Below, in pieces: positions 6,542 to 46,140 of a stretch of 47,953 bases of DNA. The translations under genes and the position numbers were made by a program. Every line of letters starts with the position of its first letter. The first letter of the stretch is position 1. The notes beneath the pieces were generated by a model, which had not been told where the DNA came from, did not search any database, and was given only the letters and a program-made list of their open reading frames with translations. The stretch is from positions 1 to 47,953 of the forward strand of contig NZ_AMXE01000022.1 in assembly GCF_000310205.1 (NCBI RefSeq), written 5' to 3'. The DNA comes from Thauera linaloolentis 47Lol = DSM 12138. Its GTDB lineage: Bacteria > Pseudomonadota > Gammaproteobacteria > Burkholderiales > Rhodocyclaceae.

Positions 6542-9088
6542 ATGCAATCCGCCCGCGAAACGCGCGCCCGGCAAACCGCCCCCCTGCACCGCACGGCCTG
6601 CGCCGCCGCAGTGCACACCGCGCTGATCACCCTTTGCCTGGCAGCGCTGCCCTCCGCAACGCCACCGGCATACGCCGCCGACTCCGCGCCGGCCCAACTC
6701 CAGAGCTATGCGATCCCCGCCGGCCCGCTCGACGCCGCCCTCGCCCATTTCGGCCATGCCTCCGGCGTGCTGCTCAGCTACCCGCCCGCGCTGGCCGCCG
6801 GGCGGCACAGCCCTGGCGTCAGCGGCGAGCACAGCGCCCCCGCCGCGCTCGCTCGCCTGCTCGCCGGCACCGGGCTGGAGGCGGTGCCCCAGTCCAATGG
6901 CGGCTACACCTTGCGCGCCGCCTCGCGCCCGACTTCCGGTGAGGCCACCCTGGCACCGATGACGGTGACCGCCACGACCGAGCGCAGCGCCAGCACCGAG
7001 GGCAGCGGCCGGTACGGCAGCAACGTCGGCACCACGGCGTTGCCGTTCAACGCCACGCTGCGCGATACGCCGCAATCGATCAGCATCATCAGCAGCCAGA
7101 TGATCGAGGACCGCAAGATCGACCGCCTGTTCGACGTCATCCAACAGGCGACCGGGCTGGCGGTGAACCGCTACGAGAGCAACCGCGGCAGCCTGTTCGC
7201 GCGCGGTTTCAACATCAACAACTACCTGATCGACGGCGCGCCGACCGGCATCAACGAGCAATGGAGCGCCGGCGAAGTATTCAGCAATACGGCGATCTAC
7301 GACCGCGTCGAGATCCTGCGCGGTTCGGACGGCCTGATGACCGGCGTCGGCAATCCCTCGGCGATCATCAACATGGTGCGCAAGCGGGCCGACAGCAGGG
7401 TGTTCAAGGGCTCGATATCGGCCGAGGTCGGGAGCTGGTCGCAACGCGGCCTGACGGCGGACATCAGCACGCCCCTGAACGAAAGCGGCTCGACCCGCGT
7501 GCGCGTCGTCGCGGATCACGACGCGGGCAACAGCTACGTCGATCGGCTGAAGAACCGCGAGCAGATCTTCTACGCCACGATCGAGCAGGACATCGGCGAC
7601 CGCTCGCTGCTCTCGGCCGGCATCAGCCGCCAGGAGAACGACACCAAGAGCCCGACCTGGGGCGGCGTACCCGGCTGGATCGCCAGCAACGCCAACGATG
7701 CCGTCCAGTCGGACTGGAGCCGCAGCATGACCACGGCGCCGCACTGGTCGTACTGGGATTCCGACTACACCAACTGGTTCGCCCGCGGCGAGCACGATTT
7801 CGGCAACGGCTGGCGGGTCAAGGCCGGCTATACGCGGGGCGACCGCAGTTCGGAAGCGAAGATCGCCAATTTCTACCAGTACGGCTCCCTCCATCCCGTC
7901 TTGGGGACCTCCTTCATCCATCAGGAACTGTTCCCCGGCTTCAGTTACAGCCTGCCGATGTCGGGGTATGCGGGGCTTTACTATGTCGACAACACGAAGG
8001 AAGACGTCAACATCCAGGTCGAGGGCGAATTCCAATTGTTCGGGCGCGAACACCAGCTCGCCTTCGGCTACGATGATTCCCGCGAGCGCCTGAAGACGAT
8101 CGGCAATCCGGGCAATACCGGCTCCGCGGTGTTCCCCGCTCCGAGCCTCTACACCTGGGACGGCCATGGCTACGAGCCGGCCTATACCTATCCCGTGGGC
8201 AGCGGCGGCATCTACATCAACCAGAAGGTCGTGCAAAAGGCCTGGTTCGTGGCCGGCCGGTTCTCGCTCGCCGAACCGCTCAAGCTGATCCTCGGCACCC
8301 GCGTGATCGATTACAGCGTGATCGACTACAAGGACCGCAACAACGATTTCACGTCGGACAACGAGACGATTCCGTACGCCGGTGTGGTCTTCGACCTGAC
8401 CCGCAACCTGTCGGCCTACGCCAGCTACACCACCATCTTCGAGCCGCAAAGCAAGCGTGATGCGAGCAACAAGCAACTGGCACCGATCGAGGGCAACACG
8501 CGCGAAATCGGCCTGAAAGGCGCTTTCTTCGACAATCGCCTGAACGCCAGCCTGTCGGTATTCGAGATGCGGCAGGAGAACGTGGCGCGGGCCAGCGGCC
8601 GGATTCCCGGCATGACGCCGCCGCAGACCGCCTATGCCGAAGTGGACGGGGTGGTCAGCGAGGGATTCGAGGTCGAGATCGCCGGTGAAATCCGCCCGGG
8701 CTGGAATGCCAGCGTCGGCTATGCCAAGTTCCGCGCCGAGGACGCCAGCGGTACGGAGCTGAATTCGCTGATGCCGCGCCAGCAGTTCAATGCCTTCACC
8801 AGCTACCGCCTGCCCGGCGCCTGGAACGGACTCACCGTCGGCGGCGGTGTCCGCTGGCAAAGCAGGACCTACGCGGATGCGTTGTTCCTGCCCGGCAAGA
8901 AGCTGGAGCAGAAAGCCTATTCCGTCGTCGACCTGATGGCGCGCTACGAGATCGACAAGCAATTGTCGCTGCAGCTCAACATCGACAACGTACTCGACGA
9001 AAAGTACTTTTCGCCCCCCGAAAGCGGCCTCGAGGTCTTCTGGCAGGAGCCGCGCAATGCCCGGTTGAGCCTGAAGTACCAGTTCTGA
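6542..9088 (+). CDS. TonB-dependent siderophore receptor with STN signalling domain (receptor 1)
   Basis: 848-residue outer-membrane transducer. Order: signal peptide (about 1-45, ending AYA), STN signalling domain (about 53-118, starting SYAIPAGPLDAAL), TonB box region MTVTATT near 140, plug domain with DTPQSISIISSQMIEDR and the RGFNINNYLIDG stretch, then a 22-strand-type barrel ending in the terminal aromatic SLKYQF. It imports a ferric siderophore using TonB energy, and the STN domain can signal to a FecR protein. The ATG follows AAGGAGAA. It heads a probable operon with the two membrane-protein genes at 9099 and 9676. The ligand cannot be told from sequence. Confidence 0.95.
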   Translation: MQSARETRARQTAPLHRTACAAAVHTALITLCLAALPSATPPAYAADSAPAQLQSYAIPAGPLDAALAHFGHASGVLLSYPPALAAGRHSPGVSGEHSAPAALARLLAGTGLEAVPQSNGGYTLRAASRPTSGEATLAPMTVTATTERSASTEGSGRYGSNVGTTALPFNATLRDTPQSISIISSQMIEDRKIDRLFDVIQQATGLAVNRYESNRGSLFARGFNINNYLIDGAPTGINEQWSAGEVFSNTAIYDRVEILRGSDGLMTGVGNPSAIINMVRKRADSRVFKGSISAEVGSWSQRGLTADISTPLNESGSTRVRVVADHDAGNSYVDRLKNREQIFYATIEQDIGDRSLLSAGISRQENDTKSPTWGGVPGWIASNANDAVQSDWSRSMTTAPHWSYWDSDYTNWFARGEHDFGNGWRVKAGYTRGDRSSEAKIANFYQYGSLHPVLGTSFIHQELFPGFSYSLPMSGYAGLYYVDNTKEDVNIQVEGEFQLFGREHQLAFGYDDSRERLKTIGNPGNTGSAVFPAPSLYTWDGHGYEPAYTYPVGSGGIYINQKVVQKAWFVAGRFSLAEPLKLILGTRVIDYSVIDYKDRNNDFTSDNETIPYAGVVFDLTRNLSAYASYTTIFEPQSKRDASNKQLAPIEGNTREIGLKGAFFDNRLNASLSVFEMRQENVARASGRIPGMTPPQTAYAEVDGVVSEGFEVEIAGEIRPGWNASVGYAKFRAEDASGTELNSLMPRQQFNAFTSYRLPGAWNGLTVGGGVRWQSRTYADALFLPGKKLEQKAYSVVDLMARYEIDKQLSLQLNIDNVLDEKYFSPPESGLEVFWQEPRNARLSLKYQF

Positions 9089-12687: not shown

Positions 12688-12799
12688 AGGCACGCAAAAA
12701 TATTATCGGCAGGTGTTGTTGATTCGCGTTTCTCGAACGACTTGAAGGCATGAGCGCCCCATGCGCGCCATGCCATCCACTCTTCGAGGAACCTGCAAC

Positions 12800-15196
12800 A
12801 TGAGCAAACACCCGCCCAAACTGCTGCGCCCGCTGGCGCTCGCCCTGCATCTCGCCTTCCTCGGCACGGCCGGCGCCACGCTGGCACTGCCCGGCACCGC
12901 GCGGGCGCAGGAGGCTGCCTTCGACTTCGCCATCCCCGCCGGCCCGCTGCAGAGCGCGCTGACGGCGTTCTCCGCGCAGACCCGGATCAACGTGTCCTTC
13001 ACCCCCGAGATCACCGGCGGCGGCAGACACAGCCCCGGTGTGCAAGGCAGCCACACCGCCGCCCAGGCGTTGAGCCGCCTGCTCGCCGGCAGCGGGCTGA
13101 TCGCGCTGCGGCAGGGCAACGGCTTCACGCTGGAACGGGCGCCGCAGAGCGGCGGTTATGAAACCCAGCTCGTACCGGTCACCGTTACCGCCGGAGCCGA
13201 TCGCAGCGGCACCACCGAAGGCACCGGCAGCTACACCCAGCGCGGCCCGAGCCGCACCGCCACCGGCCTGTCGCTGAGCCTGCGCGAAACGCCGCAGTCG
13301 GTCACCGTGATGACGCATCAGCGCATCGAGGACTTCAAGCTGGAAACGCTCACCGAAGTGCTGGAGCAGACGCCCGGCATTGCCGTGCACCAGTACGGCA
13401 CGGCCGTCGGTTACCAGGCGCGTGGCGCGGCGGTCAATTTCCAGACCGATGGATTCCGGCAGATCTCCGGCGGCTGGAGCTATTTCGGCGGCATGCACTA
13501 CGACCTGGACGACCTGACGGACATCGACCGCGTCGAGGTACTCAAGGGCTCTGCCGGCCTGACTGCCGGCTACGGCTACGCCGGCGCCACCGTCAACCGC
13601 ATCCGCAAGCGGCCGACACAGGAATTCCAGGCGAAAGCCGGCGTTAGCGCAGGGCGCTGGGACAAGCTGCGCGCCGAAGCGGACCTGAGCGGCCCACTGA
13701 ATGCCGCGGGCACGCTGCGCGGCCGCATCGCGGCGGCCGCGGGCCGGGGAGACACCTTCCGCGACGGCGAAACACAGCGCTTCCGCACCGTGTTCGGCAC
13801 GCTGGAGGCCGATATCGGCCCCGACACGCTGCTCAGCGGCGGCATCACCTACCGCAAGCGCGAACACCGCGGCATCGCCTTGTACGACGCCATCCCCGCA
13901 TACCGGGGCGGGCAGCACCTGACACTGGCGCCACGCTCGTTCAACCTGGGAACGCCCTGGTCGGGGTACGAGCAGGAGACGACCAGTCTCTTCGCCCGGC
14001 TGGAGCACCGCTTTGCCACCGGCTGGACAGCCAGCCTGCATGTGTCCGACGAGCGCATCGAGACGCCCGAGTTGCTGTTTGGCTACATCAGGTGGCCGGG
14101 GACCGCCAACCAGAACCACTACCTGAACGCCGAAAACCGCAATTCGGCCATCGACTTCGAGCTGAAAGGGCCGTTCGAAATGTTCGGCCGCCAGCACGAG
14201 TTGCGCATCGCCGCCGGTGCCGCACGTTCGGATTCCGACATGGACCGCGCCAACGGTACCTACGGCGTCCCGCTGGCCGACTTCGGCCTCGATTATGCCC
14301 AGGGCGGCTCGGCGTTGCCGAAGTTTGCGGACATGTCCCAGTGGACCTACGACCCCGATCACTTCAGCCACCGCCAGCGCTACGTGTCGGCCGCCGGCCG
14401 CTTCTCCCTCGCCGAGCCGCTCAAGCTGATTGCGGGTGTACGCGTCACCGACTATCGGCTGTCGAGCTTCGGCGGCCAATGGATGACCTACGCGTTGAAG
14501 GAATCGGGTGTGGTGACGCCGTATGCCGGGCTCGTGCTCGACATCGACGACGACATTTCCGTCTACGGCAGCTATGCCAACATCTTCGAAGCGCAGACCG
14601 CGCAGGACGAACAGGGTCACACCTTGCCGCCGCGCGAAGGCCTGACCTACGAGGTGGGCGCCAAAGGCGAATTCTTCGGCAAGCGCCTGAACACCAGCAT
14701 CAGCCATTTCTGGGTCAGGACCGACAACGAAGCCGAGGCTTCCGGCGGCCGCACACCGGGTGGCGCGACGGCCTACCGCCCCGTCATGGGGGCCTCGCGG
14801 CGCGGCTATGAACTGGAACTCTCTGGCGAGCTGGCGCGCGGTTGGCAGGCCCAGGGCAGCTATGTGATGAACGACAGCAGCCTGAGCACCGCCAGCCAGT
14901 ATCCCAAGCGCCAGCTCAAGCTCGCCACCACCTACCAGCCCTGGCACCGGCTGACCATCGGCGCCTCGACCCGCTGGCAGAGCAAGACCAGCGGCGGGGA
15001 GCTCGCGCAAGACAGTTTCTGGCTGCTGGATCTGATGACCCGCTACCAGATCAACGACAAACTCAGCATCAGCGCGAACATCAACAACGCACTGGACAAG
15101 GAGTACTTCGGCGGCATCGTCAGCGACTGGCAGGGCGTGGGCTACACCTGGGGCACGCCGCGCAGCTTCAACGCGAGCCTGCGCTACGACTTCTGA
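12800..15196 (+). CDS. TonB-dependent siderophore receptor with STN signalling domain (receptor 2)
   Basis: 798 residues from the ATG at 12800, which has GAGGA ten bases upstream; an in-frame ATG at 12761 would add 13 residues before the signal peptide and lacks a ribosome site. Signal peptide about 1-36 (ending ARA), STN domain about 40-108 (FDFAIPAGPLQSALTAF), TonB box VPVTVTAG near 125, plug with ETPQSVTVMTHQRIEDF, barrel ending SLRYDF. The plug stretch reads GYGYAGATVNRIRKRPT, unlike the common G(N/D)PSxxxNxxRKRPT of the other three receptors. It is preceded by a 112-base gap that should hold the sigma-dependent promoter. Ligand unknown. Confidence 0.95.
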   Translation: MSKHPPKLLRPLALALHLAFLGTAGATLALPGTARAQEAAFDFAIPAGPLQSALTAFSAQTRINVSFTPEITGGGRHSPGVQGSHTAAQALSRLLAGSGLIALRQGNGFTLERAPQSGGYETQLVPVTVTAGADRSGTTEGTGSYTQRGPSRTATGLSLSLRETPQSVTVMTHQRIEDFKLETLTEVLEQTPGIAVHQYGTAVGYQARGAAVNFQTDGFRQISGGWSYFGGMHYDLDDLTDIDRVEVLKGSAGLTAGYGYAGATVNRIRKRPTQEFQAKAGVSAGRWDKLRAEADLSGPLNAAGTLRGRIAAAAGRGDTFRDGETQRFRTVFGTLEADIGPDTLLSGGITYRKREHRGIALYDAIPAYRGGQHLTLAPRSFNLGTPWSGYEQETTSLFARLEHRFATGWTASLHVSDERIETPELLFGYIRWPGTANQNHYLNAENRNSAIDFELKGPFEMFGRQHELRIAAGAARSDSDMDRANGTYGVPLADFGLDYAQGGSALPKFADMSQWTYDPDHFSHRQRYVSAAGRFSLAEPLKLIAGVRVTDYRLSSFGGQWMTYALKESGVVTPYAGLVLDIDDDISVYGSYANIFEAQTAQDEQGHTLPPREGLTYEVGAKGEFFGKRLNTSISHFWVRTDNEAEASGGRTPGGATAYRPVMGASRRGYELELSGELARGWQAQGSYVMNDSSLSTASQYPKRQLKLATTYQPWHRLTIGASTRWQSKTSGGELAQDSFWLLDLMTRYQINDKLSISANINNALDKEYFGGIVSDWQGVGYTWGTPRSFNASLRYDF

Positions 15197-17655: not shown

Positions 17656-20058
17656 ATGCCCCAGCGCAACAAGCCCCGCAGCCGCCTGCTGCCCATCGCC
17701 GCCGCCTTGTGCGGCGCTTTCGCCCTGCTTGCCGGCCCGCCCGCGCCGGCCCATGCGCAGACCGGCGCGCAACAGGCGGAACGCAGCGTCGACATCGATC
17801 TGCCCGCCCAGCCGCTGGGCAGCGCGCTGAACGAACTCTCGCGCCAGACCGGAGCGCAGATCTTCGCCGACGGCGCATTGCTCAGCGGCCGCCCGGCGCC
17901 CGCGGTTTCCGGGCGGATGAGCATCGAACAAGCCCTGAGCCGCATGCTCGCCGGCAGCGGCCTGCGCGCCCAGGCCAGCGGCAGCAACGGCTTCACCATC
18001 GCGCCAAGCCCGGAGGCGCCCGCGCCGGAAGCCCTGCTGCCGGCCGTCACCATCTCCGGCAAGGCATCCGGCGCCACCACCGAAGGCACCGGCTCCTACA
18101 TCACCTGGTCCACCAGCAGTTCGACGCGGCTCAACCTGACGCCGCAGGAGACGCCGCAGGCGGTCACGGTGATGACGCGCCAGCGCATGGACGATCAGAA
18201 GCTGGACACGCTGGTCGACGTACTCGACGCCACGCCGGGCATCTACGTTGCCCAAGGCTCGATTGGTCAGGACGCCCCCAACATGTATGCGCGCGGCGCC
18301 AGCCTGAGCAACTTCCAGATCGATGGCGTGCCTACCTTTTCGGGCATGAGCCCCTTTCTCGCCAGCACGGCCGCATACGACCGTGTGGAGGTGGTGCGCG
18401 GTGCCACGGGCGTCATGAACGGCCTTGGCACGCCCGCGGCCACGGTCAACCTGATTCGCAAGCGGCCGACCGCCGAGCGGCAGTTTTCCTTGACCACCCA
18501 GGCCGGCAATTGGGATCGTTACGGCGTCGGCGCCGATGCTTCCGGCGCTGTGAACGAAAGCGGCACGGCGCGCCTGCGGCTGGTGGGCGACTACAAGGAC
18601 GAAGGTGCCTGGGTGGATCGTTTCCACCAGAAGAAACTCGCGCTCTACGGCATCGGCGAATTCGACCTGAGCGAGAAAACCCTGCTCACACTCGGCTTCA
18701 ACCACCTGCGCCAGGACACCGATTCCGCCATCGTCGGCCGGCCGCTATACTTCAGCGATGGCCAGCGCATTCCCCTGTCACCCTCGGACAACACCAGCCA
18801 GAAATGGCGCTACTACAAGCACGACATGGACGGCATCTTCGCCTCGTTGGAACACCGCTTCAGTTCCGGATGGGTCGGCAAGGTGGAGTACAGCCACACA
18901 CGCTACGAGTACGACGGTCTGATCGCGAGCATGCTTGGCTCGATTGACCCGGCAACCGGTGCAGGCATGACGATACGCCCGAACCGCTGGGACAGCGAAC
19001 TGCGGCAGAACAACGTCGACGCCTATGTTTCAGGCGTGTTTCCGCTCTTCGGCCGTGATCACGAACTGATTGCAGGGCTTACCCTCTCAAGACTCGAATC
19101 GGACGGTTCTGCCTACACGCTGGATGCAGGATATCCGACTGCCACCACGCTTCAAGACTGGGCCAATGCGCCAGCACCGACATTTGCCAACACCGGCGGC
19201 AACAAAAGCGAAGAGCGCAACTACGGCGCATTCGTGAACACCCGCTTTTCACTGACAGACAGCACGAGCCTGCTGCTGGGCGGCCGTACGACGCGCTGGA
19301 CGCGGGATATCGACGTCACCAGCCTGCTCTGGGGCGACTACTCCCTTCGCGAGCGCAGGAATACCTTCGTTCCCTATGCAGGCATCGTGCATGCGCTCAA
19401 CGACACCTGGTCGGTCTATGCCAGCTACACCAAGATCTTCCGGCCGCAGGATGACTGGCTCAACGACTACTTCACGGCCTCGCAGTTGCAACCTGAAGAA
19501 GGCGTCAGCTACGAAGCAGGCGTCAAGGCCAGTTTTGCCGGCGGCCGCCTCACGGGCAGCTTGTCAGTGTTCCGCAGTGAAGTGGACAATCTTGCAGTAT
19601 GGAACGCCGACGCATTCACATACGACCTGCTGGGCAACACCCGCGCCCGTGGGATTGAACTGGAACTCAATGGCGAGCTGACCCCTGACTGGCAACTTTC
19701 GGCAGGCTATGCCTTTGCGGTCAGCAAGGACGGCAACGGCGAACGCGTGCTCACCTATGTTCCTCGCCAGACGCTGAAGCTGTTCACCAGTTATCGGCTG
19801 CCGGGCGAATGGAACAAGCTCACTGTGGGCGGTGGCGTCAACTGGCAGAATGCCAACAACAGCGGAAGCGGCTTCGATCACAGGCAAGGCAGTCTTGCCC
19901 TGGTCAGCCTGATGGGGCGTTACCAGATCGATCGGAATCTGTCCGTTTCGCTGAATCTGAACAATGCGCTGGACAAGCGTTATCTGAGCAGCAACGGCGA
20001 CTACGGCACCTACGGTGCGCCGCGCAACTTCATGGCCTCGCTGAAGTACAGCTTCTGA
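17656..20058 (+). CDS. TonB-dependent siderophore receptor with STN signalling domain (receptor 3)
   Basis: 800 residues. Signal peptide about 1-34 (ending AHA), STN domain about 44-117 (VDIDLPAQPLGSALNELSRQ), TonB box LPAVTISG near 130, plug with ETPQAVTVMTRQRMDDQK and NGLGTPAATVNLIRKRPT, barrel ending SLKYSF. The ATG follows AGGAG. The 123-base gap before it has no Fur box; GAAAAC at 17555 and CCGTT at 17577 with 16 bases between could be a FecI-type promoter, which is a guess. The 3' half has lower G+C than the 5' half. Ligand unknown. Confidence 0.95.
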   Translation: MPQRNKPRSRLLPIAAALCGAFALLAGPPAPAHAQTGAQQAERSVDIDLPAQPLGSALNELSRQTGAQIFADGALLSGRPAPAVSGRMSIEQALSRMLAGSGLRAQASGSNGFTIAPSPEAPAPEALLPAVTISGKASGATTEGTGSYITWSTSSSTRLNLTPQETPQAVTVMTRQRMDDQKLDTLVDVLDATPGIYVAQGSIGQDAPNMYARGASLSNFQIDGVPTFSGMSPFLASTAAYDRVEVVRGATGVMNGLGTPAATVNLIRKRPTAERQFSLTTQAGNWDRYGVGADASGAVNESGTARLRLVGDYKDEGAWVDRFHQKKLALYGIGEFDLSEKTLLTLGFNHLRQDTDSAIVGRPLYFSDGQRIPLSPSDNTSQKWRYYKHDMDGIFASLEHRFSSGWVGKVEYSHTRYEYDGLIASMLGSIDPATGAGMTIRPNRWDSELRQNNVDAYVSGVFPLFGRDHELIAGLTLSRLESDGSAYTLDAGYPTATTLQDWANAPAPTFANTGGNKSEERNYGAFVNTRFSLTDSTSLLLGGRTTRWTRDIDVTSLLWGDYSLRERRNTFVPYAGIVHALNDTWSVYASYTKIFRPQDDWLNDYFTASQLQPEEGVSYEAGVKASFAGGRLTGSLSVFRSEVDNLAVWNADAFTYDLLGNTRARGIELELNGELTPDWQLSAGYAFAVSKDGNGERVLTYVPRQTLKLFTSYRLPGEWNKLTVGGGVNWQNANNSGSGFDHRQGSLALVSLMGRYQIDRNLSVSLNLNNALDKRYLSSNGDYGTYGAPRNFMASLKYSF

Positions 20059-33664: not shown

Positions 33665-33828
33665 CGCTTTTCCATGCCAGGGAACGAAAGCGGCCAGCTT
33701 ACCGAGCCTTCCCCTCTCACGCCACCGGACGGCATTCACTAGGGAAATTTTCTAATACCCCTTCTATCGGCAAGGAAATAAGCTCCCAGACAATTCAGAT
33801 GCCCATAGACAAGAAAGGGAGTGATTCC

Positions 33829-35907
33829 ATGAATACGCGAGCGATCCTGCGAACGGTCGGTATCGGCTGTTCGCTGTTGCTGGCCTCCGCTGCCGCATCG
33901 GCCGACACGGCGCAGACCGAGGCCGTCAAGCGCGGCGAATACGTCGCCCGCCTGGGCGACTGCGTCGCCTGTCACACCGCGCCCGGCGGCAAGCCGATGG
34001 CTGGCGGGCTGGCGCTGGAGACACCGTTCGGCACGCTCTACTCCACCAACATCACCCCCGATGGCAGCAGCGGCATCGGCCAATACACTTTCGAGCAGTT
34101 CGACCGCGCCATGCGCAAAGGCGTGGCTGCCGGCGGGCACAATCTCTACCCCGCCATGCCCTACCCGTCCTATGCCCGGATGACGGAACAGGACATGCGC
34201 GACCTGTACGCCTACATGATGAACGGTGTCGAAGCGGTCGCGCAACCGAACAAGGAAAACGACATGGACTGGCCTTTCAGCATGCGCTGGGGCTTGTCGC
34301 TGTGGAATGCCGTCTTCCTCGACGACGAGGCGTTCAAGCCCGTCACGGACGAATCGGCGCAATGGAACCGCGGCGCCTACATTGTACAGAGCCTGGGCCA
34401 TTGCGGCGCCTGCCACACGCCGCGCGGCATCGCCTTCCAGGAAAAGACCATGAGCGACCAGGGGGGCAAGGGCCACCTGTTCCTGGCCGGCGAAACCGTC
34501 GAGGGCTGGCGCGCGCTGAGCCTGCGCAACCTGTGGACGCCCGAGGACACCGCCGAGATGCTGAAGACCGGGCGCAACAAGCACGGCACCGTCTCGGGCA
34601 ACATGGTGGACGTGGTGCAACACAGCACCCAGTACATGACGGACGAGGACCTGCTGGCGCTGGGCATATACCTGAAGGCGCTGCCCCCCGGCAAGGACGA
34701 CCTGCCGATGCAGGTGGCCCAGGGCCCGGCGCCGGACATCGTCCCGCTGCCGGCGGGCATGGGTGCAGCGCCAGACGAGGACGTGCCGACGAACATTTTC
34801 ACCACGCGCGGCGGCCTGGGCTATCTGCAGTTCTGCGCCGACTGCCACCGTGCCAACGGCGACGGCGTGCCCGGCGTGTTCCCGCCGCTGACCGGCAACC
34901 ACACGCTGCAGTCGCAGGACCCGGCCACGCTGGTCCGCATCATGCTTACCGGCTGGCGCACGCCGGTCACGGAGACCCATTCGCGACCGCTGACCATGCC
35001 CGCGTTCGCGCAACTGAGCGACACGGAAATCGCCGACATCCTGAACTTCACGCGCCGCAGCTGGGGGCGTCCCGATGCGCGCGAGATCGCGGCGAGCGAC
35101 GTGGGCGACGCCCGCAAGCACCTCGACGCCAAGGGCATCAACGGCCGGCCGTTCGAGACGCCGCGCTTGGCCGACATGCTCAAGGAACCGAACGCCGAGC
35201 AGCTCGTGCTGGGCGCACGCCTGAACATCGACACCGCCCGCATGCTGCCCGATCACGTGGGCGCGGCGATGAACTGCGCCAGTTGCCACCTGAACGCCGG
35301 CACCGTGGCCGACGGCTCGCCCTATGTCGGCGTGTCTGCCTTCTTCCCCAGCTATGGCGCCCGCGCCGGCCGCGACATCACGCTTGAAGAGCGCATCAAC
35401 GGCTGCTTCCAGCGCTCGATGAACGGCAAACCCCTGCCCAAGACATCCGACGAGATGAAAGCGATGGTCGCCTACTTCGACTGGATGAAGCGCGAGACCA
35501 AGCCTGAAGACCGCGTGGAAGGACGCGGCATCGGCAAGATCGACCGCAGCATCGTGCCCGACCCCGACAACGGCAAGCTGATCTACGCCGCCCAGTGCGC
35601 CATCTGCCACGGCGCCGAAGGTGAAGGCATCAAGGACGCGAAGGGACGCTGGGTCTATCCGCCGCTGGGGGGCGACCACTCCTTCAACATCGGCGCCGGC
35701 ATGGCCCGCATCTACACCGCGGCGGCCTTCGTCAAGCGCAACATGCCGATCGCCTTCCATGAAAGCTTCCCGCTGGGTCAGGGCGGGCTATCCGACCAGG
35801 AGGCGGTGGACGTGGCGGCCTACTTCAGCCACCTGCCGCGCCCGGACTTCGCGCCCAAGCTCAATGACTGGCCCAAGGGCGGCAAGCCGAGCGACGCGCG
35901 CTACTGA
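33829..35907 (+). CDS. Five-haem cytochrome c: ADH-type tri-haem domain fused to a TsdA-like thiosulfate dehydrogenase domain
   Basis: 692 residues from the ATG at 33829 (AAGGGAG upstream), with a Sec signal peptide (about 1-25) and periplasmic export expected. Five CxxCH haem sites: 45 (CVACH), 192 (CGACH), 336 (CADCH), 483 (CASCH), 590 (CAICH). The first three with their spacing resemble the cytochrome subunit of membrane alcohol or gluconate dehydrogenases. From about 450 the protein resembles TsdA: PSYGARAGRDITLEERINGC with Cys526 in the place of the TsdA Cys haem ligand, and Met639 (RNMPIAFHESFPLG) as likely distal ligand of the last haem. Predicted activity is thiosulfate to tetrathionate oxidation or the reverse, with electrons via the N-terminal haems. 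Neighbouring TtrS/TtrR genes support this; activity is inferred. Confidence 0.85.
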   Translation: MNTRAILRTVGIGCSLLLASAAASADTAQTEAVKRGEYVARLGDCVACHTAPGGKPMAGGLALETPFGTLYSTNITPDGSSGIGQYTFEQFDRAMRKGVAAGGHNLYPAMPYPSYARMTEQDMRDLYAYMMNGVEAVAQPNKENDMDWPFSMRWGLSLWNAVFLDDEAFKPVTDESAQWNRGAYIVQSLGHCGACHTPRGIAFQEKTMSDQGGKGHLFLAGETVEGWRALSLRNLWTPEDTAEMLKTGRNKHGTVSGNMVDVVQHSTQYMTDEDLLALGIYLKALPPGKDDLPMQVAQGPAPDIVPLPAGMGAAPDEDVPTNIFTTRGGLGYLQFCADCHRANGDGVPGVFPPLTGNHTLQSQDPATLVRIMLTGWRTPVTETHSRPLTMPAFAQLSDTEIADILNFTRRSWGRPDAREIAASDVGDARKHLDAKGINGRPFETPRLADMLKEPNAEQLVLGARLNIDTARMLPDHVGAAMNCASCHLNAGTVADGSPYVGVSAFFPSYGARAGRDITLEERINGCFQRSMNGKPLPKTSDEMKAMVAYFDWMKRETKPEDRVEGRGIGKIDRSIVPDPDNGKLIYAAQCAICHGAEGEGIKDAKGRWVYPPLGGDHSFNIGAGMARIYTAAAFVKRNMPIAFHESFPLGQGGLSDQEAVDVAAYFSHLPRPDFAPKLNDWPKGGKPSDARY

Positions 35908-35930
35908 GCGGCGGCTGGACGCCGTGAAGT

Positions 35931-35962
35931 GAAACAGGCCGGCGGAAACGCCGGCCTGTTTC
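35931..35962. terminator. Bidirectional terminator hairpin between cytochrome and ttrR-like genes
   Basis: A perfect 14-bp stem (arm GAAACAGGCCGGCG) closes on a GAAA tetraloop (35945-35948). It lies between the stops of two converging genes and ends with TTTC in both directions, which fits a shared terminator. Confidence 0.75.
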
Positions 35963-35972
35963 ACATTGGCCG

Positions 35973-36614
35973 CTAATCCAGCGCCCCCGGATCGACTCGC
36001 AAGAACAGCCTCGCCAGTTCCGCCGCCGAAGATACGCCCGCCTTTTCCATGACGTGCTGGCGATGGATGTGCACGGTCTTTTCGCTGATGCCCAGTTCGG
36101 CGGCGATCAGCTTGTTGGGCTGGCCGCGCGCGACCAGATGGGCGACCTCTTGCTCGCGCGGCGACAGGTGGCTGAGCGCGGCGCGGGCGGTATCGCGGCG
36201 ATGGGCGCCATCGAGCATGTCGGCGCAGCGGCGCACCGCGCCTGCGACGGCGTCGAGCACGGCCTGGTCGTTGAAAGGCTTCTCGATGAAATCGCAGGCC
36301 CCGCACTTCATCGCCTGCACGGCCATCGACACGTCGGCATGCCCGGTCATGAACAGGATGGGCGCATCGAAGCCCCGGTTGCGCAATACCTGCTGCAGTT
36401 CCAGGCCGCTCATCGCCGGCATGCGGATGTCGAGCAGCAGGCAGCAGGGCTGGCTCGGCGCGGGCTGGGTGCCGAGCGCGTCGAGGAAGGCCTCGGCCGA
36501 ATCGAACAGGCACACGGGCCAGCCTTCGGTTTCGAGCAGGAAACGCAGCGAGCGGCACAGCGCAGGATCGTCGTCCACCACGTAGACGAGCGCGCTTTCA
36601 GTTGGAAACGGCAT
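35973..36614 (-). CDS. ttrR: FixJ/TtrR-type response regulator
   Basis: 213 residues from the ATG at 36614. Receiver domain first: acidic DDD at 14-16, phospho-acceptor Asp62 in LLLDIRMPAMSG, and Lys in DFIEKPFN. The LuxR-type helix-turn-helix follows (LSPREQEVAHLVARGQPNKL; LGISEKTVHIHRQHVMEKAG). This is the FixJ/NarL layout that TtrR and TodT share. Its start overlaps the end of the sensor kinase gene by 17 bases, so they are a translationally coupled pair. The name TtrR rests on the sensor's domains and is probable, not proven. Confidence 0.88.
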   Translation of the reverse strand: MPFPTESALVYVVDDDPALCRSLRFLLETEGWPVCLFDSAEAFLDALGTQPAPSQPCCLLLDIRMPAMSGLELQQVLRNRGFDAPILFMTGHADVSMAVQAMKCGACDFIEKPFNDQAVLDAVAGAVRRCADMLDGAHRRDTARAALSHLSPREQEVAHLVARGQPNKLIAAELGISEKTVHIHRQHVMEKAGVSSAAELARLFLRVDPGALD

Positions 36615-38415
36615 GGCAGGGCAAGGAAAAGGAAAAGCACATGCCCGACGGTACATTGCTTTGCGCCCACAGGCGACCCCCGTGGGCTTCGATGATGGTC
36701 TTGCAGATCGGCAGCCCGAGGCCGAGGCCGTCCGGCTTGGTGGTGAAGAAAGGCTCGAAAAGATGGGCCTGCTGCTCCGGCGACAGGCCGCAGCCCCGAT
36801 CTGCGACCTGCACTACCAGGCGCTTGTCGGCGAGGTCCAGGCGGACCTCCACCCCCTGGCGTCCGGGCGGCAGGTCGCGGCCTGCGTCGATGGCGTTCTT
36901 CATCAAATTGAGCAGCACCTGCTGGATCTGCGGCGCGTCGGCCAACACTTCGCAACCCGGCGGCAGATTGCTTTCGCAGACGATGGGCGGCGCTTGCAGC
37001 AGCATGCCCTCGATCAGTTTGCGCGTGCCGTCGATCAGTGCCGGCATGTCCACCGGCTCGCGCACTGCGGTGCGCTTGCGGGCAAAGTCGCGGATGCGGC
37101 GCATGATGCCGCCGGCGCGCTCGGCCTCGCTGTCGATCTCGCCGCAGGCCTCGACCACCGCCGCCTCGGTCAGGCGGCCGTCGGCCTGGCGGCGCAGCAG
37201 GCTGCGGGCGTAGTTGCCGATGGTGGTCAACGGCTGGTTGATCTCGTGCGCCAGACTGCCCGACAGCTCCCCCAGGATGGACAAGCGGGACAGGTGCTCC
37301 ATCTGCTCCTGGTGGCTGCGCACCCGCGCCTCGGCTTCGTCGCGTGCGCGCAGCGAGGCACGCAGCTCGGCGGTGCGCCGCTGCACCAGATGCTCGACCC
37401 GCACCGTATGCACCCCCCAGGCCGTCAGCACCAGCCCCAGCACCAGCAAGGCCGGCCAGTAGCGGCGCAACAGGCCGGCCGGCGTGATGTCGCGCAGGTA
37501 AGCATAGGGGCCGGTGCGCAGTTCGCGGTACAGGTCGCGCACGGGCTGGTAGTCGGCGGGCACCGTCCAGGCCATGCCGCTCTCGCCGCCGGGCATCGCG
37601 AGCAGCGCCTGGGCAACCTGCTTCGACAAGCCGCGGTCGGCCGAACGCGTCACCGCGATCGGCCAGTCGGGATACAGCGGCGTCGACAAGCCGCACCGAA
37701 AGCCCGCCTCCGGCCCGGCCCCGCCGCGCCGATCGGCCAGCACGCGGAAAGCGCCGAGATCGATTTCCCCGCGGGCGGCGGCCTGCTCCAGGAAACAACT
37801 GCGCACGACACCGGCGTCGACCTCGCCGCGCTGCACGGCCTCGACGATCTGCATCATCGGCACGCCGAGGAAACGGACCTCCTTCAGGCGCGATTCCGCA
37901 TCGATGCCCTGCGCCAGCATCTCGCGCACGACCAGCAGGTAGCCGCCAAAGGCATCCGGTGCGATCGCGGCCAGACGCTGGCCGCGCAGATCCTCGAAAC
38001 CATGCAGGTCGCCACGATCGCTGCGAACGATGAGCGCGGAGCCGGTCGCCCTCTCCGGCGACAGGGCCTGTGGCGAATCGAGCGTGGCGATCCGGCTGAG
38101 GCCGAACTCGTACTCCATCGCCACGTAGTAGCCGGGATTGGTGATGACCAGATCGACACGCCGGTCGCGGATCGCGCTGCGCAGGCTGTCGGCGTCGAAA
38201 TGCTCGAGATGGAAGCGGTAGCCCGGCAGGCGGGCGTTGAGGAAATGCGTGACCGGCGCCCAGTCGAGCGTCGCCGCCTGCTCGCCCTGGTAGGCGAAGA
38301 CGCCGATGGCGATGTCACGGACCCCGCCATCGGCGCCGGCCTGCGCCGGCCCGGCCAGCAGCCCGAAGCACAGGGGCAGCAGGCAGTGCCGGACGGCCGC
38401 GCGCAAACGTCCCAC
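36598..38415 (-). CDS. ttrS: TtrS-like sensor histidine kinase with periplasmic PhnD-type domain
   Basis: 605 residues from a GTG at 38415, which follows CAGGGG and starts a signal-like segment (RHCLLPLCFGLLAGPAQA). A periplasmic phosphonate-binding-like domain follows (about 28-300; ITNPGYYVAMEYEFGLSRIA), then one membrane helix (about 320-345), a short coiled coil, a HisKA domain with His390 in GSLAHEINQPLTT, and a HATPase domain (LLNLMKNAIDAG; DRGCGLS; GLGLGLPICKTIIEAHGG). This is the arrangement of TtrS, the tetrathionate sensor of Salmonella. Start lies 17 bases after the hom stop. The ligand could be another oxyanion, but tetrathionate is favoured by the cytochrome next door. Confidence 0.88.
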   Translation of the reverse strand: MGRLRAAVRHCLLPLCFGLLAGPAQAGADGGVRDIAIGVFAYQGEQAATLDWAPVTHFLNARLPGYRFHLEHFDADSLRSAIRDRRVDLVITNPGYYVAMEYEFGLSRIATLDSPQALSPERATGSALIVRSDRGDLHGFEDLRGQRLAAIAPDAFGGYLLVVREMLAQGIDAESRLKEVRFLGVPMMQIVEAVQRGEVDAGVVRSCFLEQAAARGEIDLGAFRVLADRRGGAGPEAGFRCGLSTPLYPDWPIAVTRSADRGLSKQVAQALLAMPGGESGMAWTVPADYQPVRDLYRELRTGPYAYLRDITPAGLLRRYWPALLVLGLVLTAWGVHTVRVEHLVQRRTAELRASLRARDEAEARVRSHQEQMEHLSRLSILGELSGSLAHEINQPLTTIGNYARSLLRRQADGRLTEAAVVEACGEIDSEAERAGGIMRRIRDFARKRTAVREPVDMPALIDGTRKLIEGMLLQAPPIVCESNLPPGCEVLADAPQIQQVLLNLMKNAIDAGRDLPPGRQGVEVRLDLADKRLVVQVADRGCGLSPEQQAHLFEPFFTTKPDGLGLGLPICKTIIEAHGGRLWAQSNVPSGMCFSFSLPCHAVSN

Positions 38416-43596: not shown

Positions 43597-46140
43597 ATGT
43601 CCAGTCGTCGCGCCATGCCGGCAGCCAGAGCCGGCCGCCACTCCGCTTCCGCCGCTCCGCACGCTCCATCGGCGAGCCTGGCCGCATCCGGGCCCGCCCT
43701 GCGGCCGCTCGCCCTTGCACTGCACCTCGCCCTGGCCGGCAGTCTGGCTACCGCCGCAGGCTGGCCTGCGGAAGCCGGGGCGCAGCAACCCGCGGCGCGA
43801 ACCGTAGTCCCGGCCAAAGCCTACGACATCCCTGCCGGACCACTGGCCGGCGCGCTGAACCGGTTTGCAGAAGAAAGTGGCGTACTGCTGACTGCTCAGG
43901 GCACCGCAACGCAAGGCAAGCGCAGCCCAGGTCTGAAAGGCAGCTACACGGTGCAAGGTGGCTTCGCCGCGCTGCTCGCCGGCAGTGGGCTGCAAGCTTT
44001 CCGGCAGGACGACGGCAGCTACGGCCTGCGGCCGGTGCCGGTGGACAAGCGCGGCGAAACCACGCTCGCCCCGGTCACCGTCACCGACCGTGCCGGCCTC
44101 GGCAGCCTCACCGAAGGCACCGGCGCCTACACCACCGGCAGCACCAGCGCGGCGACCGGGATGAATCTGAAACTGCGCGAGACGCCGCAGTCGGTTTCGG
44201 TCATCACCCGCCAGCGCATCGAGGACCAGAATCTGGCTTCGATGGACGACATCATGCAGCAGACAGTGGGCGTCTCAACCGTCCAGACCGGCATGGCCAA
44301 CGGCACCTATATCCGGGGCTATCAGGTCTCGAACTTCCAGGTCGATGGCGTTTCGACGACCTTTCAAAGCTTTGGCACGCAATCCAACATGGGTTTCGGC
44401 TCGATGGACAGCGCGGTTTACGATTCGGTCGCCGTCGTGCGCGGCGCGGCCGGTCTGCTAACCGGCGCTGGCGACCCTTCCGGCAGTGTCAGCCTGATCC
44501 GCAAGCGCCCCACGCGCGCGTTCCAGGCCTCGGTCGAAGGCAGCGCGGGCCGTTGGGATCAGTATCGGGCCGTCGGCGATGTGGGCGGCTCCCTGAATGC
44601 TGCCGGCACCCTGCGCGGCCGCTTTGTCGGCGCGTACAGCGAAGGAAAGTCCTGGATCGACAACTATCGCGGCGACAAGAACGTGGCCTATGGAATATTT
44701 GAAGCCGATCTAGGTGGGCGGACGCTCTTGAGCCTGACTCTGGAACGCGTACAGGAATCCACCAAGGGTGCAAGTGGGAACTATGGCAATGCCCTACCCG
44801 TGGTCTACAGTGATGGCTCGCTGACCCTTTTCGATCGCCATAGCAACAAATTACCCGCATGGGCAAGCTGGGACAGCGAGCGCAACACCGTAGCCTTGTC
44901 GCTGGAGCATGCCTTCAATGATGACTGGCGTGTCCAGCTGAATTACCGCCACGATGACATTGACGATTGGCACAAAACACTGGAAGCGTATGGAAGTTTC
45001 AACCAGAGCAATATCTTTCCCGCTCCTGACGGGTGGATCAACTATTTTGGCTACGAAGGCAAGACGGAAAGCTTCAGCGCAACGCTGAATGGTCGTTACG
45101 ACCTGTTTGGCAGGCAGCATGAGTTGGTTGCCGGCTTCAACGGTTCTTCCAGCGAGCATCAAACCAAACAAAAGCAGGTGGCCGAATCGCCATGGGTTTT
45201 TGCCGGTCTGCCGATTATCGATGGTGTTGCTGTCTATCCGGAACCCGACTGGCACGATACGCCAACGACGAGGCGAAAACCGAGTGAAACCAAGCAATCC
45301 GGTTTTTATCTGGCAACTCGGTTCCATGCGACGGAGCGTCTTTCGGCCATCATCGGCGGACGCTGGAGCGATTGGGACTATGAAGATAAAAACCGCGACG
45401 AGCATCGCAAATTCAGCGGCGTATTCGTTCCCTACGCCGGTGTGATTTACGACCTGAGCGATCGGATTTCTGCCTACGCCAGCTATACCGAAATCTTCCA
45501 GCCGCAAAGCGCAAGAGACGTCAAGGGCAGCCTGCTCGATCCGGAAGAAGGCAAGAACCGCGAGATCGGCCTCAAAGGCGAGTGGTTTGGCGGTCGCCTG
45601 AATGCCAGCATCGCCGCTTTCGAAACGCGCAAGGACAATCTGGCCGTCTATGATTGGGGCACCACCAACCCGGTTACCGGTGATGTGGTCGCCCGTGCCG
45701 AGGACGGCACCAAAGGCCGTGGTTGGGAATTGGAGGTCTCTGGCGAACCCGCGCCGGGCTGGCAGTTGCAGGGTGGCTATACGCGCTTCGTCCTGCGCGA
45801 TGGCAAGGATCAACGTATGAACACCGATACGCTACCCGAGCATCTGTTCAAGCTGTTCACCGCTTACACCCCCCAGAATCTGCCCAGGCTGACGCTGGGC
45901 GGCGGCATCAATTGGCAAAGCAAGGTATATCGCAGCACTGCCCAGGGCCGCTTGCGCGACATCTACACGCAAGAATCCTATGCCGTGGCCAATCTGATGG
46001 CGAGTTACCGCTTCGACGACCGGCTGAGCCTGAACGTGAACCTCAACAACGTCTTCGACAAGGAATACCGCACCCGTGTCCATCTGCACATGTATGGTCC
46101 GGAACGCAACCTGTCGGCTTCGTTGAAATACCAGTTCTGA
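43597..46140 (+). CDS. TonB-dependent siderophore receptor with STN signalling domain (receptor 4)
   Basis: 847 residues. The ATG follows GAGGGA. A long n-region precedes the signal peptide core (about 35-62, ending EAGAQ), so the first 30 residues are unusual. STN domain about 75-145 (YDIPAGPLAGALNRFAEESG), TonB box LAPVTVTD near 162, plug with ETPQSVSVITRQRIEDQN and TGAGDPSGSVSLIRKRPT, barrel ending SLKYQF. The 296-base gap before it has no gene; a weak hairpin and T-run occur near 43390-43409. The barrel from about 44.68 to 45.5 kb has low G+C (30 of 60 at 45001-45060). A MacA-like exporter follows. Confidence 0.95.
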   Translation: MSSRRAMPAARAGRHSASAAPHAPSASLAASGPALRPLALALHLALAGSLATAAGWPAEAGAQQPAARTVVPAKAYDIPAGPLAGALNRFAEESGVLLTAQGTATQGKRSPGLKGSYTVQGGFAALLAGSGLQAFRQDDGSYGLRPVPVDKRGETTLAPVTVTDRAGLGSLTEGTGAYTTGSTSAATGMNLKLRETPQSVSVITRQRIEDQNLASMDDIMQQTVGVSTVQTGMANGTYIRGYQVSNFQVDGVSTTFQSFGTQSNMGFGSMDSAVYDSVAVVRGAAGLLTGAGDPSGSVSLIRKRPTRAFQASVEGSAGRWDQYRAVGDVGGSLNAAGTLRGRFVGAYSEGKSWIDNYRGDKNVAYGIFEADLGGRTLLSLTLERVQESTKGASGNYGNALPVVYSDGSLTLFDRHSNKLPAWASWDSERNTVALSLEHAFNDDWRVQLNYRHDDIDDWHKTLEAYGSFNQSNIFPAPDGWINYFGYEGKTESFSATLNGRYDLFGRQHELVAGFNGSSSEHQTKQKQVAESPWVFAGLPIIDGVAVYPEPDWHDTPTTRRKPSETKQSGFYLATRFHATERLSAIIGGRWSDWDYEDKNRDEHRKFSGVFVPYAGVIYDLSDRISAYASYTEIFQPQSARDVKGSLLDPEEGKNREIGLKGEWFGGRLNASIAAFETRKDNLAVYDWGTTNPVTGDVVARAEDGTKGRGWELEVSGEPAPGWQLQGGYTRFVLRDGKDQRMNTDTLPEHLFKLFTAYTPQNLPRLTLGGGINWQSKVYRSTAQGRLRDIYTQESYAVANLMASYRFDDRLSLNVNLNNVFDKEYRTRVHLHMYGPERNLSASLKYQF

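Follow-up and report, generated by a model that had tools for sequence, protein, structure and literature searches.

A gene of Thauera linaloolentis 47Lol (= DSM 12138) encodes a single polypeptide in which a TsdA domain follows a tri-haem cytochrome of the alcohol dehydrogenase (ADH) type. The gene lies at 33829..35907 on the forward strand of contig NZ_AMXE01000022.1 (NCBI RefSeq assembly GCF_000310205.1), whose positions 1 to 47,953 are the whole stretch of DNA analyzed here (the window). Its 692 aa plus stop are supported by the open reading frame (ORF), its translation, matches in the Protein Data Bank and full-length relatives, and the protein contains five CxxCH sites (C45, C192, C336, C483 and C590). 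Reading from the sequence, we propose that it is a periplasmic five-haem thiosulfate dehydrogenase/tetrathionate reductase whose TsdA domain is covalently joined to an ADH-type tri-haem module, and we give this proposal a probability of roughly three in four. Thiosulfate oxidation is the direction that we favor for the cell, with somewhat less assurance.

TsdA domain and tri-haem partner

The C-terminal half of the protein is a TsdA di-haem catalytic domain (residues 456-692, 35194..35904; all features of the gene are on the forward strand), recognized by phmmer, Pfam and Foldseek. Residues 456-680 of the full protein match Allochromatium vinosum TsdA (AvTsdA; 4wqc) with E = 5e-50, and residues 444-673 match the TsdA part of Marichromatium purpuratum TsdBA (MpTsdBA; 5lo9) with E = 3.9e-35. 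When the C-terminal part was searched alone, 4wqc and 5lo9 were matched at E = 5e-51 and 5.5e-36, and the seven matches at E <= 1e-6 comprised four TsdA, TsdBA and two weak SoxA-type chains. The Pfam model PF21342 scores 46.6 bits (cut-off 27), identity to AvTsdA is about 40%, and Foldseek places the domain's AlphaFold model on 4wq7 with a TMt of 0.84, a SoxA/TsdA-type fold with two CxxCH sites. The models were built without haem (mean pLDDT 70.0 and pTM 0.64 at full length; 73.6 and 0.75 for the TsdA domain). Membership of the SoxA family was rejected (38.7 bits against a curated cut-off of 110). The initial annotation, made from the sequence alone, had assigned the last two CxxCH sites, together with Cys526 and Met639, to a TsdA-like domain. 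Both residues prove to be correctly numbered and aligned, and the separate search finds TsdA, not another cytochrome family, as the best match by phmmer and by Foldseek.

The equivalents of the TsdA catalytic residues are retained. In AvTsdA, the S-thiosulfonate intermediate forms on Cys123, a ligand of haem 1, and thiosulfate binding falls to Arg109, Arg119 and Ser127 (PMC4423706); experiments on TsdA tie these residues to catalysis (PMC4423706, PMC5146829, PMC9562282). By alignment, haem site 4 (CASCH, residues 483-487, 35275..35289) holds the active-site haem, and C526 (35404..35406) is the equivalent of its cysteine ligand (Cys123 in the precursor numbering of AvTsdA). R512 (35362..35364), R522 (35392..35394) and S530 (35416..35418) correspond to Arg109, Arg119 and the TsdA-specific Ser127. 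Haem site 5 (CAICH, residues 590-594, 35596..35610) holds the electron-relay haem, and M639 (35743..35745) corresponds to the haem-2 methionine, with N638 before it as in Campylobacter jejuni TsdA (CjTsdA) and MpTsdBA.

We compared 47 fused proteins, namely the window's and those from 46 of the 80 loci described below, picked for spread. C526, R512, R522, S530, N638, M639, the five haem histidines and the methionines M110, M259 and M390 are identical in all 47. Ten canonical TsdA sequences have the same residues at C526, R522, S530, N638 and M639, and carry Lys at the position of R512. All 102 fused sequences, some of them from duplicate loci, conserve the R-x9-R-x3-C-x3-S pattern. The domain shares with the TsdA enzymes of A. 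vinosum (4wq7, 4v2k) and C. jejuni the di-haem layout and the equivalents of the haem-1 Cys, Arg109, Arg119, Ser127 and the haem-2 Met; it differs from them in its tri-haem module, in an insertion after the haem-2 Met and in forming its own clade in the tree.

These residues bear on whether the TsdA-like domain could be inactive, leaving the protein as a non-catalytic electron shuttle. A precedent is Campylobacter CccC, a TsdA homologue that reportedly donates electrons to an oxidase, but there a Met replaces the cysteine and activity is only low (PMC5146829). With C526 and three substrate-binding residues invariant in all 47 fused proteins, we regard a shuttle as highly improbable.

The N-terminal half is a tri-haem cytochrome domain of the alcohol/fructose/glucose dehydrogenase type (residues 26-429, 33904..35115; phmmer, Foldseek). 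The best match of residues 17-429 among solved structures is 8gy2_B, the Gluconobacter alcohol dehydrogenase cytochrome subunit (E = 4.7e-100), followed by the cytochromes of glucose, fructose and aldehyde dehydrogenases (8hdd_B, 7w2j_C and 8gy3_A; E down to 8e-52), which bears out the initial assignment of the first three CxxCH sites to an ADH-type subunit. Foldseek places the full-length model on 8gy2_B (TMt 0.72) and 8jej_C (TMt 0.78), and the three c-type haem domains follow one another in the order of the ADH subunit. Haem sites 1 (CVACH, residues 45-49, 33961..33975; invariant in 47 of 47), 2 (CGACH, residues 192-196, 34402..34416) and 3 (CADCH, residues 336-340, 34834..34848) have M110, M259 and M390, respectively, as candidate distal ligands. 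The first two sites are spaced by 147 residues in at least 33 of the 47 aligned proteins. The fusion is the only tri-haem ADH-type cytochrome in its genome at E <= 1e-30. It shares the three-haem chain and fold with its dehydrogenase counterparts, but TsdA replaces the C-terminal tail, the enzyme served would itself be a haem protein, and no dehydrogenase gene of the pyrroloquinoline quinone (PQQ), flavin or molybdenum type was found among the neighbors examined, the rest of the genome not having been searched for such genes.

The arrangement therefore differs from TsdB-TsdA fusions, as was first suggested, because the partner is a tri-haem cytochrome of the ADH type. MpTsdBA is likewise a single chain with an electron-transfer module ahead of TsdA and an Asn before the haem-2 Met, but its partner is a di-haem protein (PMC6879331), and the significant phmmer match to 5lo9 is confined to the TsdA part. 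A TsdBA-type fusion was accordingly rejected: the matches of the N-terminal half are to ADH-type cytochromes and not to TsdB, and that half has three haem sites, not two.

Distribution and origin of the fusion

A genome scan confirmed 149 relatives, of which the best 80 loci were kept. All 80 span both domains and carry five CxxCH sites. Since the two halves match two solved families (E = 5e-100 and 5e-50) and the architecture recurs in every kept locus, we rejected a chance join or an assembly artefact. Hosts among the 80 loci include Thauera, Delftia, Ralstonia, Cupriavidus, Tepidiphilus, Zoogloea, Azospira and Massilia, many Pseudomonas, and Rhodopseudomonas, Bradyrhizobium and Xanthobacter. 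Coverage of the query reaches at least 80% in eleven plasmid records, including Cupriavidus metallidurans pMOL30, Thioclava and Ideonella; among the eleven, Paracoccus aminovorans has two genes and the Paracoccus versutus match is in two pieces. Annotation of the eight best plasmid matches goes no further than 'c-type cytochrome' or 'cytochrome C'.

Across genome samples, by hand tallies of the search results, a TsdA-domain match was found in 26 of 150 genomes of the family and in 43 of 398 genomes of the phylum. Frames long enough to be the fusion were found in 11 of the 150 (at least 690 aa at 64% identity or more) and in 5 of the 398 (at least 673 aa at 59% identity or more), the source genome being counted in both. 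Occurrence is patchy, because three genomes of the same genus listed in the family sample had none. Among 32 fusion genomes chosen by hand from the 80 loci, 21 hold a second TsdA match, and 11, including Thauera butanivorans, have no other at E <= 1e-10. SoxB scores above its curated cut-off in 10 of 33 genomes (the source genome plus these 32); the source genome is not among the 10.

We found that the same two modules also occur as separate genes. At six loci, a tri-haem ADH-type gene lies directly 5' of a TsdA gene of 299-335 aa (L144, on a Paracoccus plasmid; L146; L147; and L148-L150, from three genomes of one genus). By the listed ORF limits, five of the six pairs have an overlap of 4-8 nt, the TsdA start of L147 being unsettled. 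Two further close TsdA genes (L151, L153) have no tri-haem ADH-type neighbor in the DNA read. The survey that the initial annotation had called for thus reveals a widespread family with a two-gene counterpart, and no rarity.

To place these forms, we built a TsdA-domain tree of 93 sequences (36 fused, 6 two-gene, 2 solo and 49 other) with a quick method and midpoint rooting; of the 102 fused sequences, 35 were retained and the window was added, and eight loci were dropped as duplicate or partial. The fused sequences form one clade (SH-aLRT 98), the two-gene sequences fall just outside it (branches 83 and 92), and the solo sequences lie outside those. A second tree, of the ADH-type domain, dropped four duplicate loci and all fused loci except the same 35, the window, L040 and L063. 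Here all five-haem sequences fall in one set (support 99), but its overall support is weaker than that of the TsdA tree: two ADH-type sequences that are not known to lie beside TsdA (L170, L177) join five two-gene sequences in one group (support 90), and the sixth, L146, is unplaced. Because the fused sequences form one clade with the two-gene sequences just outside, the gene pair probably came first and was then joined in a single fusion, as judged from these trees. The reverse order, fission of a fused gene, is the less likely reading. Elsewhere in the TsdA tree, two ORFs of about 513 aa (L133, L137) with a TsdA domain and four CxxCH sites are apparently an independent four-haem fusion lineage.

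The same tree bears on substrate. The fused clade stands well apart from other TsdA sequences, and the insertion after the haem-2 Met is likewise a departure from canonical sequences, so a different reaction could be imagined, such as the oxidative coupling of another sulfur thiol or oxyanion. The equivalent of the TsdA-specific Ser127 is nevertheless retained, and the sulfur-related neighbors described below point to tetrathionate, which makes another substrate quite unlikely.

The fusion was not described in the titles or opening abstracts of the literature matches listed, nor is it mentioned in the excerpts of PMC5146829, PMC6879331, PMC4423706, PMC9562282, PMC9237845, PMC8788666, PMC6245092, PMC8348568 and PMC11293645, although an earlier mention in print is possible. 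Within that literature, it is not a well-described enzyme. Its chemistry is known; its partner and architecture are apparently new to the literature searched, where we have not seen them in print.

Gene start, neighboring genes and regulation

The start at 33829 is favored because it is preceded by a likely ribosome-binding site (AAGGGAG, 33815..33821, 7 nt before the ATG) and because the matches of two relatives (L007, 92%, and L003, 88%) begin at the same Met; an alternative in-frame ATG at 33799 would lengthen the protein by 10 aa. Residues 1-25 (33829..33903; ...ASAAASA|DTAQ) form, as judged by eye, a probable cleaved signal peptide with a Kyte-Doolittle peak of 1.7 (19-residue window).

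Directly downstream, two genes on the reverse strand resemble a tetrathionate-sensing system. The first encodes a LuxR-type response regulator (35973..36656), identified by Pfam, whose best curated NCBIfam model is FixJ (206.5 bits, cut-off 255), followed by TtrR (148.1 bits, cut-off 290). The second encodes a histidine kinase (36598..38400, upstream limit approximate) with a periplasmic PhnD-type sensor domain (PF12974), HisKA and HATPase_c, and its best NCBIfam model is TtrS (E = 9.3e-90; 301.7 bits, cut-off 750). Since the curated cut-offs are missed, we do not claim membership of the TtrS and TtrR families proper and call the pair TtrS/R-like. Between the convergent fusion and regulator genes, a perfect 16-bp inverted repeat with a 4-nt loop (35929..35964) is likely a shared two-way terminator; a scan for T-run terminators did not list it.

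The TtrS/TtrR-like system, which the initial annotation had passed over, is the strongest contextual support for a thiosulfate/tetrathionate role. Homologues of both kinase and regulator lie near the fusion at 14 or more of the 80 loci, and a canonical tsdB-tsdA pair at 10 or more; both counts are lower bounds, as some loci are short. On two of three annotated plasmids, from Thioclava and Ideonella, fusion, kinase and regulator run in one direction; C. metallidurans pMOL30 has no such run. The two-gene locus L146 has the convergent layout of the window. The TtrRS system of Vibrio parahaemolyticus is a tetrathionate sensor that activates tsdBA (PMC11293645), and the ttrRS-ttrBCA-tsdBA cluster of that species also sets TtrS/R-type sensing beside a TsdA enzyme. 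Its TsdB and TsdA are separate proteins, however, and the window has kinase and regulator scores below the family cut-offs and no molybdenum reductase among the neighbors examined.

Other neighbors of the fusion encode a MOSC protein, a homoserine dehydrogenase and an aminotransferase. The source genome holds a canonical tsdB-tsdA pair elsewhere (G000:C52:26377-27006; L002, L152). At nine of the 80 loci, from Azospira, Zoogloea and their kin (L021, L023, L025, L028, L030, L031, L033, L034 and L036), the TtrS/R-like pair, the five-haem fusion and tsdB-tsdA share one locus; two different TsdA enzymes side by side would call for a division of labor. The 48-kb window also contains four TonB-dependent receptor genes (6542-9088, 12761-15196, 17656-20058 and 43597-46140).

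A promoter scan of the DNA detected no promoter, and side-by-side comparison of upstream sequences, made without an alignment program, gave lineage-specific likenesses only and no common operator. One such likeness, CTAGGGA(A/G)AT(T/C)TTCT(A/T/G)ATA, lies upstream of the fusion in the window (33740-33828), in T. butanivorans and in a Rhodocyclaceae metagenome-assembled genome (L007, L003); it is a possible regulator site, though its three carriers are close relatives. Another, GGGGACC(A/G)CCCC, occurs some 25-40 bp 5' of the fusion start in four pseudomonad loci (L032, L039, L041, L045), and its GGGG-N4-CCCC layout resembles in spacing the ttrR box GTGG-N4-CCAC (PMC11293645).

Electron flow, direction and significance

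Several steps would connect the two halves of the enzyme. At haem 4, C526 would leave the iron and form a cysteinyl S-thiosulfonate with one thiosulfate, from which a second thiosulfate would release tetrathionate. The two electrons could then pass from haem 5 through haems 1-3, in an internal order that may vary from this outline, to a periplasmic acceptor, probably a cytochrome c or a blue copper protein that feeds an oxidase or denitrification enzymes. The chain could also run in reverse as a tetrathionate reductase. The tri-haem module would thereby serve TsdA as a covalent wire, and a built-in acceptor may speed the removal of electrons from the active site, as has been suggested for MpTsdBA (PMC6879331). 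Control of the fusion gene in the window's lineage probably lies with the adjacent TtrS/TtrR-like system, as a sensor of tetrathionate.

Where the electrons leave depends on the tri-haem module, and its closest relatives suggest a different exit. These are the cytochrome subunits of membrane-bound dehydrogenases, which pass electrons to ubiquinone. If the module kept that reactivity, the protein would be a membrane-associated thiosulfate:quinone oxidoreductase or quinol:tetrathionate reductase that wires TsdA to the quinone pool; the two-gene ancestors would be covered too, as a haem-only enzyme formed when an alcohol dehydrogenase electron module became attached to TsdA in evolution. By eye, some fused and two-gene relatives (Rhodopseudomonas, Xanthobacter and two-gene sequences) have an uncleaved-looking N-terminal helix that could anchor them. 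In the window protein, by contrast, the signal peptide looks ordinary and no hydrophobic anchor follows the third haem: the linker (residues 430-455, 35116..35193) reaches an inter-domain Kyte-Doolittle maximum of 0.39 (15-residue window), compared with about 3 in three anchored ADH-type relatives. Only those three, though, carry a C-terminal hydrophobic anchor among the 18 ADH-type sequences without TsdA linkage in the matches listed. Because its tri-haem domain lacks this anchor, the window protein is more likely to work with a soluble periplasmic partner than with quinone. Energetics argue the same way, the potential of ubiquinone being near +100 mV. The thiosulfate/tetrathionate couple lies above it at +198 mV (PMC5146829, PMC9562282), and quinone reduction would therefore be uphill. 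We consider electron transfer to or from quinone unlikely; were it true, a sulfur enzyme would be wired directly to the quinone pool.

The direction of catalysis is the second choice to be weighed. We lean towards thiosulfate oxidation on account of the hosts, many of which are pseudomonads and similar genera of aerobic heterotrophs, and of tetrathionate formation by Pseudomonas strains. Two such strains are reported to make tetrathionate, which their authors think likely to proceed via TsdA (PMC6245092). Physiological tetrathionate reduction, with electrons flowing from the respiratory chain through the tri-haem module and TsdA to tetrathionate under TtrS/R-like control, would agree with a neighboring kinase that is most like TtrS among NCBIfam models, with an N638 that matches reduction-biased CjTsdA, and with separate tsdB-tsdA genes in the same genomes, sometimes adjoining, that could be the oxidizing partner. 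Against it, many of the hosts, among them fluorescent pseudomonads and Delftia, are mainly aerobic. Moreover, Vibrio TtrRS also controls the oxidative tsdBA (PMC11293645), and MpTsdBA, which is oxidation-biased (PMC5146829), has the same Asn. Reduction as the main role is possible but doubtful.

Several observations weigh against a thiosulfate-oxidizing five-haem enzyme as proposed here. Both AlphaFold models are modest in confidence, with a pLDDT below 50 in the 488-509 loop, and no biochemistry of the fusion or of any fused relative was found in the literature searched. The kinase and regulator fall short of the TtrS and TtrR cut-offs, and 66 of the 80 loci, including every Pseudomonas locus, are without the pair in the DNA examined. 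The tetrathionate-forming Pseudomonas strains are not known to carry the fusion. Because 21 of the 32 fusion genomes hold a second TsdA match, the main role may fall to an enzyme other than the fused one, and because CjTsdA and MpTsdBA share the Asn before the haem-2 Met, N638 does not decide direction.

Electron partners of TsdA are an open point, for which TsdB has been described and a fusion to a di-haem acceptor has been solved. A large clade of alpha-, beta- and gammaproteobacteria takes its partner from a quite different enzyme class, both as a neighboring gene and as a fusion. The protein would be a naturally occurring five-haem wire whose active haem has a rare Cys ligand, assigned by analogy, and may be useful for electrochemistry. 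The family points to an overlooked enzyme, predicted to act on thiosulfate or tetrathionate, in Pseudomonas, Delftia, Cupriavidus, Thauera and others.

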